From positions 1,550,001 to 1,614,000 of the forward strand of contig NZ_CP063458.1 of NCBI RefSeq assembly GCF_015169395.1: a stretch of 64,000 nt of DNA, read 5' to 3'. This document shows, one piece after another, positions 9,442 to 53,623 of this stretch; the first letter of the stretch is position 1, and each line of letters begins with the position of its first letter. Both the position numbers and the translations under genes were made by a program. The stretch comes from Humisphaera borealis. GTDB taxonomy: Bacteria > Planctomycetota > Phycisphaerae > Tepidisphaerales > Tepidisphaeraceae. Below the pieces are notes generated by a model. It had not been told where the DNA came from. It made no database searches and saw only the letters and a list, made by a program, of their open reading frames with translations.

Positions 9442-11634
9442 TCAATCCCGTAGCGCCTCGTTCAGCGCTGCTTCGATCTCATCCTGTCCCTCGCCGGCGG
9501 GTTCCGAGCCGTCTTCAAAGGCTTCGGGGAACTCTTCGTACAGGATCTCGATCTCGCCTTCGTCGGTAATGAGCTGCATCGGCAGTTCGGCTTCGACATC
9601 GACGGCCGATTCCTCGTCCGCCGCGATCTGGTCCAGATGATGCCCGTTGGTCGCAGACTGCGGGGCCGGGGGAATGCCGGGGGCCGGAATCGCGAACGCC
9701 AGATCACCCATCAAGTTGCCGCGAGATGATGCGTTGCCCGGGAGGGAATCCGTCAGACCGCCGAGCCCGCTGGAGCCGGGCTCGAGGCCAAAGATTCGCT
9801 CCGCGGCGTCGGTGTCGGTCGATGGCGAAGAAGCTGTTACTGGGGTACCTGGCTCGACAGAAGCTTCGCCGGGCGAAACCTCGGCCAAGGCAGTCGCATC
9901 GGGGGTAGTGTCTATCTCATCGGTGGCAACGGCGTCAGCGGACAGTGTTTCGGCCGACCATTCGCCTTGCGCTACTTCCGACGGAACGGCATTTTGTTCT
10001 GCGGCAAATTCATCGATCGCTGCGACCGGTTCCGTGTGTTCGGCTACCGCTTCTTCTGCAGCGGTTTCGAAAAGATCAGTCGGAAGGGGCGGCGGTACGT
10101 CGGCGAGCGACAGACCCTCGTCGTGTTCGGACACGGGCTGTTGATCCAACAAAGGCGTTTCAGCGGTGAGGTCCACCGGCTCCCCGCCAAACTCCGCGGC
10201 TTCGGCGGTCTCGGCCGATTGCAGGAAGTCCTGCGACAACTCGAGAGATTCCGGAGCTTCGGCAACCGGCTGCCATTCGTCGACTTCGCTCTCGGCGGCG
10301 ATTTCAGGTGCGACCTCCGCGGGGATTTCCGGTCCGCCGGCCTCGACCTCGCCGACCTCACCTGGCTCGGCAATCTCGGCGGCAGCATCGGCATCTGGTT
10401 CTGCCATGCCCGAAAATCCGGCCGTTTCGGCGGGGCCGATGTCGGTAAAGTCCAGACCATTCAGGGCAGCTTCAGTATCGCTATCGATGGGTAGCGAAAG
10501 CTCATGCCCCTCGGTGATGTCCTGGCCGACCGGCGCGTCGACCGACACCTCATTCGTGGACTCAGGTTCGGCCTCCGTTGCCGCCGATTCTGCGGAGAAC
10601 GTCTGGTCGTCGCCGGCCTCCTCTTCGGAGGTTTCCGCGAACGCAACATCGTCGATGCCGGTTTCGCTCAGGGTGGCCGAGAGGTCTTCATGCAGGTCGT
10701 CGTCGTTGCCACCGGCGGCCGCTATCTCGGGGATTTCTTCGTGAGGTTCTTCATGGGGCTCGAAGATTTCGAGCTCGCCGGTTTCCGGCTCTTCCTCCAC
10801 CGCCGAGCTGAACTGCTGCTCGAAGGCCTGTTGTCCGATCGGATCTTCGACCGGTGCAAGTTCGTCGGACAGGCCGTCAAGTTCCGGGAGTTCGAGTTCA
10901 GCTTCGTGGTCGTCTGCGTCAGCTTGCGTGGAGGCCGCAACGGTGTCGTTCGGTTCTTCGGAGGATTGCTCTTCCAGTGCGTCGCCGGAGGCCTCACTCT
11001 CGGCGGGCAGTTCTTCGTTGGCATCAGCCGAGTGATCTTCGGGTTGTTCTTCGCCGGCGTAGTCTTCGGGGGCTTCGTCCGAGGCCTGCGACGAATCGGC
11101 AAACGCCGCCGATGCGATACCGCCGCCGAACCCCATCGCGGCCGCCGGAACAACGGCAGCCGCCGTCGGAGAGGGGACGCCGAAACCGAACGACGGCGGC
11201 GGGGTTCCTTCGGCTCGCTTGCGCGCGACCGGTGCCGGTGCTTGTGCCGGTGCCTGTGCCGCGGCGGCCTGCTTCGTGATCGCCGATGCGGGAACGTCAA
11301 TGACGCCTTGGTAATACCCGATCGCCAGCAGCCCCTGCTGCTGCTGATAGGGAAGGTTCACGAGGTCGCAGAATTCGGCGATGAGTTGCTGGGCGGCGGG
11401 ATCGGACTGTTCGGACGCGTGAACCTCACGCTGATGCTTGCGGTCCCGGAAGCGCATGATCTGCACGAAACGACCGCTGCCATCACCGCTGGTCCAGTTC
11501 GGCCCCATCTGCTCGTAGACTTCGAACAGGTCGCAGCCCAACCGCATCAGGACCTGGCGAAATCGACGCAGGAGGCGGACGTGTTCGGCCCGGCGTTCCT
11601 TGGGGACGATGTAACTATTGGTCTGCAGAAGCAT
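9442..11634 (-). CDS. Long acidic, mostly disordered protein with N-terminal globular domain
   Basis: From the ATG at 11634 the product is 730 residues; a GTG at 11670 would add twelve. Residues 1-125 look folded: they contain YIVPKERRAEHVRLLRRFRQ and FVQIMRFRDRKHQ, which recalls a ferredoxin-like dimeric alpha/beta barrel domain, though I cannot name the family. Residues 130-730 are of low complexity, dominated by Glu, Ala, Asp, Pro and Ser, with no hydrophobic core; that region is likely extended and strongly negative. No signal peptide or membrane segment is visible, so it is probably cytoplasmic. The role is unknown. Neighbours (rpmH and a transporter gene) give no functional hint. Confidence 0.7.
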   Translation of the reverse strand: MLLQTNSYIVPKERRAEHVRLLRRFRQVLMRLGCDLFEVYEQMGPNWTSGDGSGRFVQIMRFRDRKHQREVHASEQSDPAAQQLIAEFCDLVNLPYQQQQGLLAIGYYQGVIDVPASAITKQAAAAQAPAQAPAPVARKRAEGTPPPSFGFGVPSPTAAAVVPAAAMGFGGGIASAAFADSSQASDEAPEDYAGEEQPEDHSADANEELPAESEASGDALEEQSSEEPNDTVAASTQADADDHEAELELPELDGLSDELAPVEDPIGQQAFEQQFSSAVEEEPETGELEIFEPHEEPHEEIPEIAAAGGNDDDLHEDLSATLSETGIDDVAFAETSEEEAGDDQTFSAESAATEAEPESTNEVSVDAPVGQDITEGHELSLPIDSDTEAALNGLDFTDIGPAETAGFSGMAEPDADAAAEIAEPGEVGEVEAGGPEIPAEVAPEIAAESEVDEWQPVAEAPESLELSQDFLQSAETAEAAEFGGEPVDLTAETPLLDQQPVSEHDEGLSLADVPPPLPTDLFETAAEEAVAEHTEPVAAIDEFAAEQNAVPSEVAQGEWSAETLSADAVATDEIDTTPDATALAEVSPGEASVEPGTPVTASSPSTDTDAAERIFGLEPGSSGLGGLTDSLPGNASSRGNLMGDLAFAIPAPGIPPAPQSATNGHHLDQIAADEESAVDVEAELPMQLITDEGEIEILYEEFPEAFEDGSEPAGEGQDEIEAALNEALRD

Positions 11635-34812: not shown

Positions 34813-34903
34813 GGAGAGGTGGCCGAGCGGCTGAAGGCGACGGTTTGCTAAACCGTTCTACGGAGTCATATCCGTAGCGAGGGTTCGAATCCCTCCCTCT
34901 CCG
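34813..34903 (+). tRNA. tRNA-Ser(GCT)
   Basis: The sequence folds as a class II tRNA with a long variable arm. The acceptor arm GGAGAGG pairs with CCTCTCC, the discriminator base is G, the anticodon loop is TTTGCTAAA (anticodon GCT), the variable stem is TACGGA/TCCGTA and the T loop is GGTTCGAATCC. CCA is not encoded. The prophage-type genes begin about 160 bp downstream. Confidence 0.97.
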
Positions 34904-35014: not shown

Positions 35015-35045
35015 AAAGCCGGGCCTATGCGGCCTGGCTTTTTTT
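35015..35045 (+). terminator. Rho-independent terminator
   Basis: AAAGCCGGGCC pairs with GGCCTGGCTTT around a five-base loop (one G-T pair), and a run of seven T follows on the plus strand. It reads in the direction of tRNA-Ser and marks the border with the leftward phage genes, whose last stop is at 35066. On the minus strand no comparable T-run follows. Confidence 0.82.
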
Positions 35046-38330: not shown

Positions 38331-39575
38331 TTAGAAGTACCCCGGCTGAAGGTTCGCATTCACCGGCCGGCGGAGCTTGCCCAGCCGCTCGGCCGTCACG
38401 TCCAGCGACGCCTCGCTCACGAACTCATACTCCCACGTGGTTTCCCGCCGCACTCGATCGACCGGCCGGCACACCACCACCGGCGGCTTGGCCAGCAGCT
38501 TGGCGTCCAGGATCGGCTCTGGCGCCTTCAGGTACCGCAGCACGGTCAAGGCACGCCCGCGTTGCACGGCCCGGTAGACCGGGGCTTTCAGACCGAACCT
38601 CGGCAGCGTGCCGAAGTATTCGAACACCGGCCGGTCCGCCCCTTCCTTCGTCGTCGTGAACGTGTTGTCCCACTCCAGCAGGTCGTCTCCCTCCGTGCTG
38701 CTCAGCATCGAGAACGACGCCTTCACCCGCCGGTCCTGGTGGGTGTTGTAGTCCCACCGTTCTCGGAGGATCGTGCCCGCCGGCCGCACCAGGTCCTTGA
38801 TCGCAATCGGGTCGCCGCTGAAGGCGAAGTCGATCGACAGCGTCTGCACCTTGCCGTAGTGCTCGTCCAGCTCCGTCGCTCGCACCAGGTCACCGTCGAA
38901 GATCTCCGCGCCGGCCGGTGCCGCCGGCAGCGGTGTCGCCAGCTCGGTGAAGGTCAGCGTCCACTCCACCCGATCCTCGGCCACGTTCTTCACTTCCTCG
39001 GTCGTCAGGGGCCAGAGGTTGGCCGGGTACAACGCGCGGATGCGTGGTTGGGTTGCGGTGCGGAAGACGGCGGCGGCGTTGGTGCCGCGCCCCTCGCCGC
39101 GGTAGGTGACTGCCTTGAGGTTGCTGGCCCGCGTGGCCACCGACACCGAGAAGCTGCTCTGCTCGTCGCCGCCGCCTTCGCCGTCGCCCTGGTTGAGCGA
39201 CGTTGCGATCTCGAACTGCAGCCTCTTGACCAGCGGGGCCTCTTCGCCGGCCGGCAGCAGCTCGAACGACTTGACGTGCGGCCCGCCCTCCAGCGATTGC
39301 GCCGGCAGCACGCTGTACTCGAGCACGCCAGTCAGCCCGGAGATCAGCAGCGGCAGGCCGCTCAGCCGGAACGCCGCGCACACCGCCGCCAGCTTCAGGC
39401 CGAAGTCCGCCGCGTCGGTCCCCTGGATGTACCCTTCACCCTTCACGCTGACGGTGGTGCCGATCCTCCCCAGGCCGTCCTTCATCTCGGCCGACTCCGA
39501 GGCGGTGTAGTCCACGAGCTGAAAGTCAGCCGTGCCGTACGTGGCCTTGAACAGTGCGTCAAACTCACCGGCCAT
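38331..39575 (-). CDS. Phage tail protein (distal tail-like)
   Basis: The 414-residue product sits right after the tape measure, where siphoviruses encode the distal tail protein. It opens with FDALFKATYGTADFQLVDYT and is rich in beta-forming segments such as VEWTLTFTELA, TLSIDFAFSGDP and ETTWEYEFVSEASLDV. Its start overlaps the tape-measure stop by one base (TAATG). Family membership is not certain, and the function is inferred from gene order. Confidence 0.62.
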   Translation of the reverse strand: MAGEFDALFKATYGTADFQLVDYTASESAEMKDGLGRIGTTVSVKGEGYIQGTDAADFGLKLAAVCAAFRLSGLPLLISGLTGVLEYSVLPAQSLEGGPHVKSFELLPAGEEAPLVKRLQFEIATSLNQGDGEGGGDEQSSFSVSVATRASNLKAVTYRGEGRGTNAAAVFRTATQPRIRALYPANLWPLTTEEVKNVAEDRVEWTLTFTELATPLPAAPAGAEIFDGDLVRATELDEHYGKVQTLSIDFAFSGDPIAIKDLVRPAGTILRERWDYNTHQDRRVKASFSMLSSTEGDDLLEWDNTFTTTKEGADRPVFEYFGTLPRFGLKAPVYRAVQRGRALTVLRYLKAPEPILDAKLLAKPPVVVCRPVDRVRRETTWEYEFVSEASLDVTAERLGKLRRPVNANLQPGYF

Positions 39576-41209
39576 TAGAGGCCCTCCGCCGTGAGAGACC
39601 GGAACTCACCCGACGCCTGCTGTTCTTCCAGCCAACGTCGCAGCTCGCTCATCGACTTGTTGCCGATCTGCCGAGCCAGCGACGCGGCGTCGGTATCCGG
39701 GCCGACCTTGATCGTCACCGTCCGCTCCGTCCGACTGTTGCCCAGCTTGGTGTCCACCAGCGGCGTGCCCGATCCGATCAGTGCCCCGCCGGCTCCGCCC
39801 ACCAACGCCCCGATCAGCAGCCCCAGCGGGCCGAAGAAGCTGCCGACCGTCACACCCAGCCCGACACCCGCCCCGATCCCGCCCGACAGCCCCACGTCGC
39901 CGGTAAGGCCGTACGCGAGCCCGCCAACGCCCAGCCCAGCGCCAGCACCCAGCCCCAGGCGTCCGCCCAGGCCGCGAAGCAGTCCGCCGCGTGCGGCACC
40001 GCCAACGCCGCCGGCAGCCGCCGCCGCCCCGCCCAGACCGCCCGGGCCGCCGCCGGCCGCCTGGGCCGCGTTGGCCGCGCCGATCCCCGCCGCCAGGGTG
40101 AAGTAGCTGCTCGCCAGGTTGGTCACCACCCGCACAGCCGAGATGCCCGCCGCCCCCAGCCCGATTTCCTTGATGTTGTTCAGGATGGCACCGGCGATCG
40201 GCAGCACCTGCTGAACTGCCCGGGTCACCGCACCCACCGCCGCCACGATCGCGTCGGCCGCCGCCTGCGCCTTGGCAGCCGCTTCCTGGGGGTGGTCGCG
40301 AATCCAGCCCACCACCTCTTCGACGACCGGCCGGAGAGCCCCGCCCAGCCGCTGGCCAAAGCTGGTCGCCACGCCCTCCAGGTTGCCCAGGATCGCCGTC
40401 GCGTCCGTCACCACGCCTTTGAAGTTCAGCCCCTCCGCGAACCCCGACCCGAAGCCGCGGTTTAAGGAGCCCCGGGCGTCGGCCAGCGTCGACAGCAGCC
40501 CCTTGATCCCCAGGCTGCTCTTGGCCGCGCCATCGGCGAAAGCACCCGTCCCGCTGGTCATCCGGCGGAACGCTTCCTCCACCATGTCGAACGAGATCTT
40601 CCCCTTGGTCACTTCGGCGTCGAAGCCGGTGCCCTTGAGCCCCGTCATTTTCTCCAGCTCGCGTCGCAGCGGCACGCCCCGCTCGGCGAACTGGAGCAGC
40701 TCCTCGGTCTGGAGCTTGGTCTTGCTCATCACCTGGGCGTAGATCAGCCCGACCTCCTGCAGCGGCTTGTCGGCGATCGCCGCCACGTCGCCCAGGGCCT
40801 TGAGCGACGGCAGCACCTTGTCGGCCGCCATCCCGAAGCCCAGGAACTGACGGGCTGTCGCCACGATCCCCGGCAGCTCGAACGGCGTGGCGGCGGCGAA
40901 CTTCGTGAGGTCCACCATCATCGACTTGGCACGGCCGGCCGAGCCAAGCAGCACCTCCATCGAGATCGTCGCCGCCTCCATGTCGCCGGCGAGCTGCAGG
41001 CCCGTGCCGATCGCCGAGCTGAGGCCGGTCGCGATCGCCTGGCCCACCGTCGCTGCCAGCGCCGCCACGCCCAGCAGCGGGTTAGCCAGGAACGCCGTCA
41101 CCACCGGCGGGAAGGTCTGCGCGATCGCCGTCGCCTCCAGCATGCCCTGGCGGAACGGGGCCACGTTGAGCCCGAGTGTCGAAGTTGCCGCGCCTGCGTC
41201 GAACGACAT
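39575..41209 (-). CDS. Phage tail tape measure protein
   Basis: The 544-residue product has the tape measure pattern: an N-terminal segment with MLEATAIAQTF, then the conserved block GDMEAATISMEVLLGSAGRAKSMM, TPFELPGIVATARQFLGFG and GIKGLLSTLADARGSLNRGFG. Hydrophobic and Gly/Ala-rich helices (residues 340-470), including GGLLRGLGGRLGLGAGAG, follow, and a C-terminal charged helix ends it. In the virion it sets tail length and later enters the host membrane. At about 0.15 nm per residue the length would suggest a tail of roughly 80 nm, which is a family-based estimate. It follows the chaperone genes as expected. Confidence 0.88.
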   Translation of the reverse strand: MSFDAGAATSTLGLNVAPFRQGMLEATAIAQTFPPVVTAFLANPLLGVAALAATVGQAIATGLSSAIGTGLQLAGDMEAATISMEVLLGSAGRAKSMMVDLTKFAAATPFELPGIVATARQFLGFGMAADKVLPSLKALGDVAAIADKPLQEVGLIYAQVMSKTKLQTEELLQFAERGVPLRRELEKMTGLKGTGFDAEVTKGKISFDMVEEAFRRMTSGTGAFADGAAKSSLGIKGLLSTLADARGSLNRGFGSGFAEGLNFKGVVTDATAILGNLEGVATSFGQRLGGALRPVVEEVVGWIRDHPQEAAAKAQAAADAIVAAVGAVTRAVQQVLPIAGAILNNIKEIGLGAAGISAVRVVTNLASSYFTLAAGIGAANAAQAAGGGPGGLGGAAAAAGGVGGAARGGLLRGLGGRLGLGAGAGLGVGGLAYGLTGDVGLSGGIGAGVGLGVTVGSFFGPLGLLIGALVGGAGGALIGSGTPLVDTKLGNSRTERTVTIKVGPDTDAASLARQIGNKSMSELRRWLEEQQASGEFRSLTAEGL

Positions 41210-41877
41210 TCAATCCTGCTTCGAAGGCCCTTTGCCTTCACCGTCATTTGCCGTGCCAAGCCCCAGCTGGGCATACAGCATCTGGAATCCCGCCTTGCCG
41301 CTGAACCGCTGCGACTTCGTGCCGCCCGGCCCGTCACTCATCGGCCCCACGCCGTCGGCGTCCGGCTCGCCGGCCACGCTCACCTTCAGCCGCTCTTGCT
41401 TCATCCGCTGCTCGATCCGCTCGTCTCGTTTTAGCCTGGCCGCCAGCAGGTATCCGAACGACACGACACCGAAGTCCAAGGCGGCGGCCGGCGTCATGGC
41501 CGGGCAGATCTCGATCAGCGCCGCCACCGCGTCCCACAGGTCGAACGCTAGATCGCCGCCAGCCCCATTGCGGCCCGCACCTGGTTGCGACGGGCCGCCC
41601 GTTTTTTTTCGAGGTGGGACCCCATGTAAGCGCCGATCGTGGTCGTCACATCGTCGCGAACGTCGTCGTCTTCGAGCAGCTCGCGAAGCCCGCCGGCGTC
41701 GGCGTCACTCACCAGGCCGAGGATCTGCTGGATCTCCGCCTCGCGGGGCAACGCCAGCCGCATGGTGGCGAACTCCTTGAGCGTCACCTCCCGCACGGTG
41801 AAGGTCTTGCCGCCGATTCGAAGCTGCAGGTCCCACAGCGGGACGTTATTGGGCTTGGTGTCTTGATCGATGAGCAT
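41210..41877 (-). CDS. Predicted -1 frameshift fusion of tail assembly chaperones (222 residues)
   Basis: The fusion reads frame zero from 41877 through the AAA codons ending at 41602, then slips back one base and continues from 41602 to 41210. The second frame is open from the slip site to its stop and contains GGDLAFDLWDAVAALIEI and LDFGVVSFGYLLAARLKRDERIEQRMKQER, a helix-rich tail-chaperone-like part. Without the shift the second part would only have an internal GTG (at 41527) with no clear ribosome site. Tail assembly chaperones in siphoviruses are made as a short and a frameshifted long form, in a set ratio, to guide tube growth along the tape measure. Gene order (tube, chaperones, tape measure) fits exactly. 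Confidence 0.8.
41548..41877 (-). CDS. Tail assembly chaperone, short form (lambda gpG-like)
   Basis: This 109-residue frame-zero product is the short chaperone. It has a beta-rich N-terminus (VPLWDLQLRIGGKTFTVREVTLKEFATM) followed by helices, typical of the phage tail chaperone-1 pattern. It ends soon after the eight-A run at 41602-41609, in which a portion of ribosomes is expected to shift to the longer product. It lies between the tail tube gene and the tape measure gene. Confidence 0.8.
   Translation of the reverse strand: MLIDQDTKPNNVPLWDLQLRIGGKTFTVREVTLKEFATMRLALPREAEIQQILGLVSDADAGGLRELLEDDDVRDDVTTTIGAYMGSHLEKKRAARRNQVRAAMGLAAI
41572..41609 (-). promoter_or_regulatory. -1 ribosomal frameshift site with downstream hairpin
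   Basis: On the coding strand the slip site is A-AAA-AAA (part of eight A at 41609-41602), in the frame-zero codons GAA AAA AAA. Five bases downstream a GC-only stem begins: GGCCCG (41596-41591) pairs with CGGGCC (41577-41572) around a 13-base loop. This heptamer and spacing match known -1 frameshift signals. Confidence 0.78.
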
Positions 41878-41935: not shown

Positions 41936-42445
41936 TTACGACGGCGGCGCGCCGATGTAGCCGTACGCCTTGATCGTGCCGAGCTGGGCGCGGTCGGGAT
42001 AGAACTGCCACTCCACGCGGACCACGTCGGGCACGTCGCCGTTGCGGTTGGGCGGGGTCACCTTCTTTGGCACGGCCTTCAACAGGTTGATGTCGAAAGT
42101 CGTCGTCGCCTCGGCGATTTCGTTGGGGTGTAGCTTCAGCAGCGCAGCGTAGCTGTACAGGTCGGTGTTCAAGCCGCTGGGCTGCAGCGGGATTGAGCCG
42201 CTCGTCCACCAGGGGAACAGGGCCTGGTACTGCGCGGCGGTGATCTCCCGGAAGTTGGTGACGATCATGCCGCCCAGTCCGAGAATCCAGTGGCCCAGGT
42301 CGATTGGCCCGAGGCTGCCGACCCGCTTCTCCTTGAGGATCAGATCCAGCGTCGGCGTCACGTCGTCGACCGCGCCGAACTCGGTAGAGCCCCAGGTGAC
42401 GTCCCAGGCACCGAGCTTGAGATTGGCAATGTCATAGGTGTTCAT
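41936..42445 (-). CDS. Major tail tube protein
   Basis: The 169-residue product precedes the chaperones, the standard place of the siphovirus tail tube gene. Its pattern is that of tube proteins: a short strand start (YDIANLKLGAWDVTWG), a Pro/Thr stretch with FGAVDDVTPTLDLIL, the loop GLGGMIVTNFREIT, and a final beta region with VVRVEWQFYPDRA. Hexamers of it would form the tail shaft around the tape measure. The start overlaps the stop of the upstream terminator-like protein gene by four bases. Confidence 0.82.
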   Translation of the reverse strand: MNTYDIANLKLGAWDVTWGSTEFGAVDDVTPTLDLILKEKRVGSLGPIDLGHWILGLGGMIVTNFREITAAQYQALFPWWTSGSIPLQPSGLNTDLYSYAALLKLHPNEIAEATTTFDINLLKAVPKKVTPPNRNGDVPDVVRVEWQFYPDRAQLGTIKAYGYIGAPPS

Positions 42446-42894
42446 AGGGGTACGTACTCCAGGTCAAAGTTGGCCACCCACTCCGGGCGGCCCTTGTCGT
42501 CACGGTTGATGTAGTCCGGCCCGCGGAGGTTTTGCACGGCGAGGATCTTGTGCGTCGCCGTCCCGCTGGTCGGCAGCTGCAGGTTGCGGATCGGCTTGCC
42601 CTGGGCGTCGAGCAAGGCCCGCACGATCGCCAGCGCCCTCGCCCGCACGTCCGCCTCCACGTACCCGACCGACCGGGCCTGGATGGACGCGGTTGGCAGG
42701 CCGATCGTCGAGACGGCACCGGCGTAGTTCCGCAGCTCGGTGTAAACGCCGACCCGGCCCAGGCTGTCCAGCGGCACCTGCGTCTCGTCGGCCGGCCCGG
42801 TCCAGATCGACCGCCCGCCGGATTCGTTGATTGACAGCGTCGCGACCAGGTAGGTCGCGAGCTTGTCGAGGAGGTTGTGCGGGTCGAGGGGCAT
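42442..42894 (-). CDS. Probable tail terminator/completion protein
   Basis: The 150-residue product starts at the ATG at 42894 (MPLDPHNLLDKLATYL), chosen because the in-frame extension upstream runs into the previous gene. It lies directly before the tail tube gene, as tail terminator proteins do, and is followed by it with a four-base overlap. The helix-then-sheet layout (LLDKLATYLVATLS, then SVGYVEADVRARALAIVRALL) is typical of such small connector proteins. The specific family is not certain. Confidence 0.62.
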   Translation of the reverse strand: MPLDPHNLLDKLATYLVATLSINESGGRSIWTGPADETQVPLDSLGRVGVYTELRNYAGAVSTIGLPTASIQARSVGYVEADVRARALAIVRALLDAQGKPIRNLQLPTSGTATHKILAVQNLRGPDYINRDDKGRPEWVANFDLEYVPL

Positions 42895-42902
42895 TTCGGT
42901 TG

Positions 42903-43289
42903 TCAGTCGGCGGTCGTCGCCTTCACTCTTGCCGCCACGAAGGGGGCGAACTTGGGAGCGGCCGCACGCACGGCCGTCTCCAGAAACTTCCACTGGCCGC
43001 GCGGGTTCTGTCGCGGGCCGACGTCCTTCTCCGGCGGGCGTTCGTGCCGGGCCGCCCCATACCGGATGTTGAAGCCGATCGTCTTGCTCACCTTCAGGCC
43101 CACCATCACCGCCGGCTCGCTGGTGGCGCTGGCCTGCAACGCGCCGCTCTCCACCGGGCAGATCTCCTGGGCGTCGCCGAGCACGTGCTCGCCGAACTGA
43201 TCGACCGCCGTCCTCGCCGCCGACACGGCCGCCGCGTCGAAGCGGTTGAGGCCGCGGAGGATTTCAGTCATGTCGATCGAGGCGGACAT
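42903..43289 (-). CDS. HK97 gp10-like head-tail protein
   Basis: The 128-residue product matches the HK97 gp10-like (minor capsid/tail completion) pattern: an N-terminal helix pair (MTEILRGLNRFDAA, ARTAVDQFGEHVLGDAQEICP), the central CPVESGALQASATSEP with the G-x-L-x-x-S turn, then the IRYGAARHERPP and final helix WKFLETAVRAAAPKFAPFVAARV. Such proteins link the head and the tail. The ATG at 43289 is preceded by GGAGTGACC. Confidence 0.8.
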   Translation of the reverse strand: MSASIDMTEILRGLNRFDAAAVSAARTAVDQFGEHVLGDAQEICPVESGALQASATSEPAVMVGLKVSKTIGFNIRYGAARHERPPEKDVGPRQNPRGQWKFLETAVRAAAPKFAPFVAARVKATTAD

Positions 43290-50674: not shown

Positions 50675-53623
50675 TTAACGGGGCCTCCGAGTTGGAACTT
50701 TGATCGGTGAACTCATCGCCTGGCGGCGGGCCCGGCTCACGCCCACGGTGTCACGCAGGGGCGTCAGTTTCTTCGGCGGTGTGAAGCCTTTGGCGTAGCC
50801 GCCCAGCACTTGCTGGCCGAGCTGCAGATCCTTGAACCGACGCTGGGCCTCGGCACCGCTGACGCCGAGCAGCTTGCTGGCGTCGGCCAGCCCGGCCGCT
50901 TCGGCCAGGTCTTTGGCACTGGCCAGCTCGGGGATGAACGCCCGCGTGCTCTTGCCGCAGAACGGGTGGAACGGCGGACCGCCGCGGGGCAGGCGGTCGA
51001 TCGACGGATAGGTCGAGTCGCCACCGCTCAGGCTGAACACCATGCCCAGGTACGCCGTGCAGAAGTTGCCGGAGAAGGTTCCGACGACCCGCACCAGGTC
51101 GATGCCGCTTTGCTGGAAGCGGTTGTGCCGGGCCTTCTCCATCACCTCGCGCGTCTTGGTAACGGCGACGAGCCGGGCGTAGTGGGCGGTGTCGAACTGC
51201 ATCGTGCCGCCGTTGCGGGTCGGGATGGAGATCTGATCGCCGATGGCGGCCTTGAGTGCGTCACGCAGTTCGCGGATGGCGGCTTCGGGTTCGCCTTCGA
51301 TGATCCCGCCGGCCAGGATGCGGTTGAGCTTCGACTCGTCGATCGCCCGCTGGCTGGTCTGGGTGACGATGAAGTCAGCCTGCTCCTTGAGCGCGCCGTT
51401 GGCTTTGTCCAGGTCGGTCGCGATGTCGCGGGCGAGGATCTCCACCGCGTCGCGATCGATCCGGCTGAACGAGGCCGACACCGGCGAGCCCGCCGGATTC
51501 ACTCGCAGCTCGGCAACTTCGACCGCCGCCGCGTTGAGCCCGTTGGTGTACGCTGCCGGCGCGTTCGTGCCCGCCCAGCTTTGAGTCAGCCGGCCGTGGC
51601 CGGCGAGGATCGTCTCGACTTGGCTCAGCTGCTGGCTGGCTCGCAGCCGGCGGTAATCCTTGCTCCCCTGCGTGCGGCCCTTGGGGTCGAGGATGATCGC
51701 CTTGAGCTTGTTCTGCGTGCCGGCGTAGATAGACACCAGTTGGTCCAGGGCCGGGCCGGAAACGCCGGCGCGTGATGCGTCTGCCATGATCGAGACCAGC
51801 AGGAGGACAAGGGCGATCAGCTTCGCGGCACCGCCGAACGGCAAGACCCCGCCGCCAGGTTGACCAACGCCTGGTTGCCCACCGCCAGGTGCGTCGGGTG
51901 CGTCGGGCGCATCCGGAGCCACCTCGGGGAACAGGGCTTCGGCTTCCTGGCGGCTCATGCCGAGCATGGTCATCGCGTTGAGGATGCACGCTTCGCGGGG
52001 CAGCTCGCCGCCGTAGTACGCCACCTGCAGATCGCGGATGCCGTTGAGCGCACCAACCGTCGAACGCAGGTCGTTGCCGGCGACGGCGTCGGTCTGATCC
52101 TGGCCACCGCCAGGGAGTTGCTCACCGCCAGGTGAGTTGCCGCCCGCCAGGGCCGGGTCCATGAGGAGGGACGAGGGCGTGTTCGCCTTCGCCTCTTCGT
52201 CCAACTCGGCGAGTTCCTGCTCGACGGCCGCGGGGTCTTTGAGCTGCTCGATGAGCGATCGCCGGACCGACAGCAGGCCGGCCCCGCGGAGGATCGCCTG
52301 GCGCTCGGCCATGTCTTTCTCGTCGGCGGGAATTCCATCGCGCAGCTCGACGGCGACGGGGCCGCGGTCGTACCGCACGCCGGGCAGGGTCTGCTCCAGG
52401 TCCTGCGCCACGCCGACGGCTCGGCGGATGCCGGCCTTCCAGTACGCCGCCTTGCGGGCGGCCTTGGTGAGGGAGTTGAACGATTCGAGGCGCACCTTCT
52501 TGTACGCGTCGGGCGCGGCGCCTTCCTTCAGGCCCAGCAGCACCGGCGACGTTTCGGTCCGCACCAGCAGCTGGTTGAGCACGAACGCGCGATCCTTGAG
52601 CGCGACCTCCAGCTCCGCCGTCCAGGTGATGTACTTGGGGATCTGGTTGGGATCAGTGAATGAGAAGGCGTCGGCGTCCGCGCGGATGTTCCCCTTCTCA
52701 TCGAACGCCTCGGCCGGGAAAACCATTTTCGGATCGCTGTGCTTCAGCAGCACGCGGGACACCTGGCTGTTCTTGGCGTTGAGGGCGTCCTGCAGGTCGA
52801 TCGCGCCGTCGTAATCGCTCACGGCCTTGCCGCGGATGATCAGGTTGGGAATCCAGGTGACGACGTTGACGCCGGGGATCGTGACTTCCACCTCGGCGGG
52901 CAGTTCACCCCCCGCGTTGCGGGCGTCCTTGAAGCCGGGCCACTGGTCGAGGGCGAGCGGCTGGCCCATTTTCTTTCCGCCGTCGTCGAGCTGCCACAAC
53001 TTCCGCTCGATCTTGCCGGGCGTGTAGACCTGCTCCAGGAGGAGCCAGATCGGCTTGTCCTTGAGGCCGACGTTCTCGACGCTCAGGCGAACGTACCGGT
53101 CGTACTGGCCGGCGGCGGAGATCGGGCCGTCCGGGAAGATCTCGTCGGCCGGGATCTGGCGGAGGTAGACTTGGCCGCCCTTGATGCACGCCTCGAGGAA
53201 ACATTCCCCTTCGTAGCTGGCGTCCACCGCGCAGCCGTAGAGCAGGGAGTGGAGGTTGCACCGCTCGGCCAGCGCGGCGATCGCCGCCTGCTGGTATTCG
53301 TCGTCCGACCGCAGCAGCGGCTCCTCGCCGAACAGCAGGTCTGCCCCCTTGAGGGAGATCAGACCGAGCACGTTGTAGCTGAGATACAACTGCACATTGC
53401 GATCGCCGACGCGGACGGGGGCGAAGTCGTACTGCGTCCGCTGCTCGTCCAGGAAGTACTCGCGGTGCTTGCCGTCGAACAGCAGCCGGGCCTGGCGGAT
53501 GCGTTCGAGCCGGGCCTGCTGCTCGTCCGACAGGAACGCGCCATAGCCACCCGCCCGCGCCGCGTTGAACGCGGAGCCGGTCGTGTAGACCCAGACGGCG
53601 GGGATGGCGGTGTTGAGCTGCAT
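50675..53623 (-). CDS. Portal protein fused to a MuF/SPP1 gp7-like minor head domain
   Basis: This 982-residue protein combines two usual neighbours. Residues 1-500 fit a phage portal (LLFDGKHREYFLDEQRTQ, GADLLFGEEPLL, NLIIRGKAVSDYDGAIDLQDALNAKNSQVSRVLLKH). A Pro/Gly-rich linker with repeated PGGG and PDAP units follows (about 515-592). Residues 594-616 are hydrophobic (LIALVLLLVSIMA). Residues 620-970 form an SPP1 gp7/MuF-like minor head domain with VAVTKTREVMEKARHN, FSGNFCTAYLGMVFS and the GGPPFHPFCGKSTRAF zinc-like motif. The portal ring would anchor the tail; the fused part would act at the vertex during assembly. No stop separates the parts. Confidence 0.87.
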   Translation of the reverse strand: MQLNTAIPAVWVYTTGSAFNAARAGGYGAFLSDEQQARLERIRQARLLFDGKHREYFLDEQRTQYDFAPVRVGDRNVQLYLSYNVLGLISLKGADLLFGEEPLLRSDDEYQQAAIAALAERCNLHSLLYGCAVDASYEGECFLEACIKGGQVYLRQIPADEIFPDGPISAAGQYDRYVRLSVENVGLKDKPIWLLLEQVYTPGKIERKLWQLDDGGKKMGQPLALDQWPGFKDARNAGGELPAEVEVTIPGVNVVTWIPNLIIRGKAVSDYDGAIDLQDALNAKNSQVSRVLLKHSDPKMVFPAEAFDEKGNIRADADAFSFTDPNQIPKYITWTAELEVALKDRAFVLNQLLVRTETSPVLLGLKEGAAPDAYKKVRLESFNSLTKAARKAAYWKAGIRRAVGVAQDLEQTLPGVRYDRGPVAVELRDGIPADEKDMAERQAILRGAGLLSVRRSLIEQLKDPAAVEQELAELDEEAKANTPSSLLMDPALAGGNSPGGEQLPGGGQDQTDAVAGNDLRSTVGALNGIRDLQVAYYGGELPREACILNAMTMLGMSRQEAEALFPEVAPDAPDAPDAPGGGQPGVGQPGGGVLPFGGAAKLIALVLLLVSIMADASRAGVSGPALDQLVSIYAGTQNKLKAIILDPKGRTQGSKDYRRLRASQQLSQVETILAGHGRLTQSWAGTNAPAAYTNGLNAAAVEVAELRVNPAGSPVSASFSRIDRDAVEILARDIATDLDKANGALKEQADFIVTQTSQRAIDESKLNRILAGGIIEGEPEAAIRELRDALKAAIGDQISIPTRNGGTMQFDTAHYARLVAVTKTREVMEKARHNRFQQSGIDLVRVVGTFSGNFCTAYLGMVFSLSGGDSTYPSIDRLPRGGPPFHPFCGKSTRAFIPELASAKDLAEAAGLADASKLLGVSGAEAQRRFKDLQLGQQVLGGYAKGFTPPKKLTPLRDTVGVSRARRQAMSSPIKVPTRRPR

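Follow-up and report, generated by a model that had tools for sequence, protein, structure and literature searches.

The tail-chaperone frameshift is conserved among long-tailed phages (Xu, Hendrix and Duda 2004, as cited in PMC5009743), and its mechanism is established, as is the lambda model (PMC5009743). In Arthrobacter phage Reedo (NC_071032), the tail assembly chaperone is annotated as a joined two-piece CDS (10171-10784), and a −1 slip at G_GGA_AAC reproduces the annotated CDS end exactly. The slip site of phage lambda is G_GGA_AAG. The dnaX gene of Escherichia coli uses A_AAA_AAG with an upstream Shine-Dalgarno-like stimulator. No earlier description of a tail-chaperone frameshift in Phycisphaerae prophages was found in the literature searched.

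Herein, we describe a tail chaperone locus in a 64-kb window (the whole stretch of DNA that was analyzed) that very probably, judged from its sequence, uses lambda-like G/GT −1 ribosomal frameshifting in a siphophage-like prophage of the Phycisphaerae (Planctomycetota). Like lambda G/GT, the locus lies between the tube and tape measure genes, shifts in the −1 direction near the 3′ end of G, would yield both a 0-frame and a fusion product, and has poorly conserved ORF sequences. Unlike lambda, it carries A_AAA_AAA, followed after 3 nt by a strong GC hairpin, and its host is a planctomycete. It resembles Reedo, in which the joined −1 chaperone CDS directly precedes a tape measure 37% identical to that of the window over residues 63-257; the heptamer differs, and the comparison covers tape measure and layout. 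As in E. coli dnaX, an A-run heptamer decoded by tRNA-Lys is followed by a hairpin. However, dnaX terminates right after the shift, whereas the shift in the window would give a longer product and has no clear Shine-Dalgarno-like element. We regard the locus as an ordinary, well-supported case of the known tail-chaperone frameshift, which it extends to Phycisphaerae prophages.

Prophage Setting

The host genome is a single contig of 7.19 Mb, and the neighborhood of the locus is a prophage that includes a CI-like repressor with a peptidase S24 domain. Its genes are ordered TerS, TerL, portal, major head protein, probable tail terminator, probable tube, G/T, and tape measure. The canonical order of tube, chaperones, and tape measure given in the initial annotation is borne out, the tape measure by family match and the tube by position only. 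The tape measure protein (39575..41209, minus strand, 544 aa) has a TMP_3 domain (phrog_9959, E=4e-44; PF20155, E=1e-19). The probable tail tube gene (41936..42445, minus strand) matched no family and is placed by position. The probable tail terminator (42442..42993, minus strand) is a weak assignment, its match to Pfam Phage_tail_terminator_6 (E=0.003) falling short of the cut-off. Two overlapping ORFs lie between the tube gene, so placed, and the tape measure gene, as in a G/GT pair.

No near DNA match of the prophage was found among phages. P0001 and the probable tube protein had no confirmed relatives among viral contigs, and a first tape measure scan of genome contigs gave no relatives. 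Elsewhere in the window, a 982-aa protein (50675-53623, minus strand) matches a portal (residues 36-483, phrog_533) and a minor head protein (residues 661-906, phrog_4611), so that it appears to join a portal to a minor head protein of the MuF type. An N6/N4 DNA methylase gene (PF01555, 60527-62032, plus strand) lies on the upstream side of the prophage. Near its downstream edge, tRNA-Ser(GCT) (34813-34903, plus strand) is a possible integration site; a search for an attachment-site repeat of this tRNA gene found no exact match of at least 14 bases elsewhere in the window.

Gene G and the Slippery Heptamer

Gene G, the probable 0-frame tail assembly chaperone gene, spans 41548..41877 on the minus strand, from an ATG at 41877 to a TAG at 41550-41548, and encodes 109 aa. 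Read on the minus strand, its codons GAA AAA AAA CGG place A_AAA_AAA in frame at 41608-41602, which agrees with the GAA AAA AAA and heptamer reported in the initial annotation. The heptamer is 17 codons from the 0-frame stop and thus near the 3′ end of G, where a G/GT slip site is found. It sits inside an A8 run (41602-41609), and no other run of eight or more A occurs anywhere in the window, whichever strand is read; one further A-run, of 7 A, lies near 35045.

A scan of both strands in the window and in 14 related loci covered 1,010 ORFs with a minimum length of 80 aa. It looked for A_AAA_AAN lying no more than 35 codons from the stop and leading into a −1 frame open for 85 codons or more. 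The pattern occurred six times in five loci, every time at the chaperone position. The broader pattern X_XXY_YYZ (Y = A or T) gave nine matches, two of them outside the chaperone position. The null for both counts is the window and its related loci, some of which were picked as tape measure relatives and not for their heptamers.

The identity of G as a chaperone rests mainly on position and layout. No named family matched the chaperone proteins at a significant score. PHROG matches had E values of 0.15-0.44, and two of the three were tail assembly chaperones. The model of G (mean pLDDT 67) shows a beta hairpin followed by helices; a Foldseek search of viral models ranked tail assembly chaperones first, second, and fourth (best E 0.04), and a search of the PDB returned nothing significant.

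The −1 Frame

The T part (41210..41602, minus strand) extends the −1 frame for 130 codons, to a TGA that ends at 41210 and adjoins the tape measure ATG at 41209. It thus reaches roughly to where the tape measure begins, as the T frame of a G/GT pair does. Its translation reads TGGPSQPG...GGDLAFDLWDAVAALIEI..., and the remaining two frames across this stretch contain three and seven stops. After the G stop, G+C by codon position is 0.68/0.47/0.84 in the −1 frame, similar to neighboring genes such as the portal gene (0.69/0.45/0.88). The frame therefore is open from the slip point to 41210 as had been proposed, with a base composition by codon position like that of its neighbors.

The initial annotation also held that this second part has no proper start of its own. 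An in-frame GTG does exist at 41527, 20 bases beyond the G stop, and T could in principle be a separate gene translated from it or by reinitiation after that stop. What stands of the earlier claim is that the GTG has no convincing ribosome-binding site. Starting there would also cut the predicted first helix of T (residues 22-32, at low confidence in a model that is poor overall), and in several relatives (L028 and L022) the −1 part has no start codon near its beginning. We consider a separate T gene extremely unlikely. The frameshift reading also matters for annotation: it supplies the correct gene model for a G/T pair that gene callers would split.

Conservation in Related Loci

Related loci were gathered via relatives of the tape measure protein. 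The initial annotation had suggested comparing the A-run in related phages, and this comparison was positive: L051, L049, and L050 all keep A_AAA_AAN near the end of G. L051, a viral contig, has an A9 run with A_AAA_AAA and a similar G (pairwise BLASTP E 3e-5), and L050 has an A9 run with A_AAA_AAG (G pairwise BLASTP E 1e-5). L049 carries A_AAA_AAC, with only A6 before the C; its G relation is weaker, since G aligned at 13% identity. A search of the phage collection with the G protein of L051 gave no match. All three loci have a −1 extension past the heptamer that reaches toward the tape measure. The G and T parts of the window, L049, and L050 aligned as one profile, and the window T part aligned with the T parts of L051, L049, and L050. 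Pairwise similarity of T is weak, one comparison giving E=0.02 and another no match.

Seven more distant Phycisphaerae prophages carry a slippery heptamer at the equivalent position. It is A_AAA_AAG in L030 and L031, A_AAA_AAC in L032, A_AAA_AAA in L034, C_CCA_AAA in L029 and L033, and G_GGG_GGC in L028. The G/GT layout is thus kept in L051, L049, L050, and these seven class relatives; the layout and its conservation are directly observed. The closest cellular relatives of G/T are carried by a member of the same family. With the window, eleven loci with differing heptamers in related hosts form a set for slip-site comparison.

The shift is not universal, because in the remote relative L024 the ORFs are fused into one, and L038 and L039 (G117), which are related to the N-terminus of the tape measure, have just one ORF in the interval from tube to tape measure. 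No slippery site was seen in L038 or L039. Long-read assemblies often misjudge the length of homopolymers. One extra A would fuse the two frames of the window, so the true run could be A9 and G-T one intact ORF, as in L024. The neighboring genes are intact, however, and the two-frame layout recurs with different heptamers in three related loci from other assemblies, which makes an assembly error very unlikely.

The main rival is slippage by RNA polymerase within the A8 run, because the host has two lysine tRNAs and there is a precedent in Thermus dnaX. In this case the polymerase would insert an extra A there, and part of the mRNA would carry G-T as one continuous frame that ribosomes read without shifting. 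The run lengths here (A8) and in L051 and L050 (A9) would suit such slippage. In Thermus, which likewise has two lysine tRNAs, dnaX uses RNA polymerase slippage (PMC5009743), and the present host has both tRNA-Lys(UUU) and tRNA-Lys(CUU). The relatives argue for the ribosome instead. In L049 only A6 precedes the C. Among the class relatives the run is A6 or A7, shrinks to A4 in C_CCA_AAA, and is missing altogether from G_GGG_GGC, yet the ribosomal heptamer register is kept throughout. The pattern of downstream hairpins also suits ribosomal slippage. Transcriptional slippage as the sole route is accordingly unlikely in our judgment.

Hairpin and Other Possible Stimulators

A probable stimulatory hairpin lies at 41570..41598 (minus strand), 3 nt past the slip site. 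Its 8-bp GC stem has arms GCGGCCCG (41598-41591) and CGGGCCGC (41577-41570) with three further inner pairs, and its fold energy is −22.4 kcal/mol. The pairing of GGCCCG with CGGGCC around a 13-nt loop, 5 nt past the slip site, had been noted earlier; it is present, but it makes up only the inner six pairs of this larger stem. The hairpin was considered as stand-alone proof of the shift and rejected in that role, as shuffled GC-rich sequence often folds equally well. For the window, 16 of 200 shuffles did so, and the hairpin alone is therefore weak evidence.

Hairpins opening 3-8 nt past the heptamer were also compared with in-phase positions within 4 kb at each locus. Against these neighboring coding positions, the window hairpin was not significant by itself (p=0.06), and the eleven loci combined gave a significant p=7e-4. 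In an anti-Shine-Dalgarno test, the window showed no upstream signal above the chance level (p=0.29); combined over the eleven loci, the test was significant at p=2e-4, led by L028, L029, L031, and L032. Both combined values are somewhat optimistic, because both tests were picked after several sequences had been viewed. In L028, another Phycisphaerae prophage, AGGAGG occurs about 7 nt upstream of G_GGG_GGC (about 9,675-9,730, reversed orientation) and is a possible dnaX-like Shine-Dalgarno stimulator.

A broader proposal is that the shift of Phycisphaerae prophages is tuned across the class by an upstream Shine-Dalgarno-like element and a strong downstream hairpin, with transcriptional slippage contributing at A8-A9 runs in hosts that have both lysine tRNAs. 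We regard this as speculative and rather unlikely.

Proposed Mechanism

Under −1 ribosomal frameshifting, most ribosomes would translate G and terminate at 41548. A minority, with tRNA-Lys(UUU) occupying both the P and the A site over AAA AAA and held by the GC hairpin just downstream, would move back by one base and continue to 41210, giving a predicted 222-aa G-T fusion. The slip and its efficiency are inferred. By analogy with lambda, G would coat the tape measure and the T part would recruit the tube protein; these roles are likewise putative.

The tRNA complement is compatible with such a slip. The tRNA-Lys(UUU) of the host reads AAA, so both tRNAs at A_AAA_AAA could re-pair fully after slipping. 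In E. coli, A_AAA_AAG is stronger than A_AAA_AAA (PMC5009743). The use of the weaker E. coli site, the weak similarity of T, the non-significance of the window hairpin taken singly in GC-rich DNA, and the chance-level Shine-Dalgarno signal in the window all count against the frameshift reading. The in-frame heptamer, the open −1 frame, the related loci, and the gene order support the programmed −1 frameshift first proposed in the initial annotation.

The same genome also has at least 13 tRNA genes packed into a dense array (L086; G000:C1 near 4,478,700-4,480,500), where Lys(UUU) and Lys(CUU) each occur in a second copy; the array may lie on a mobile element.
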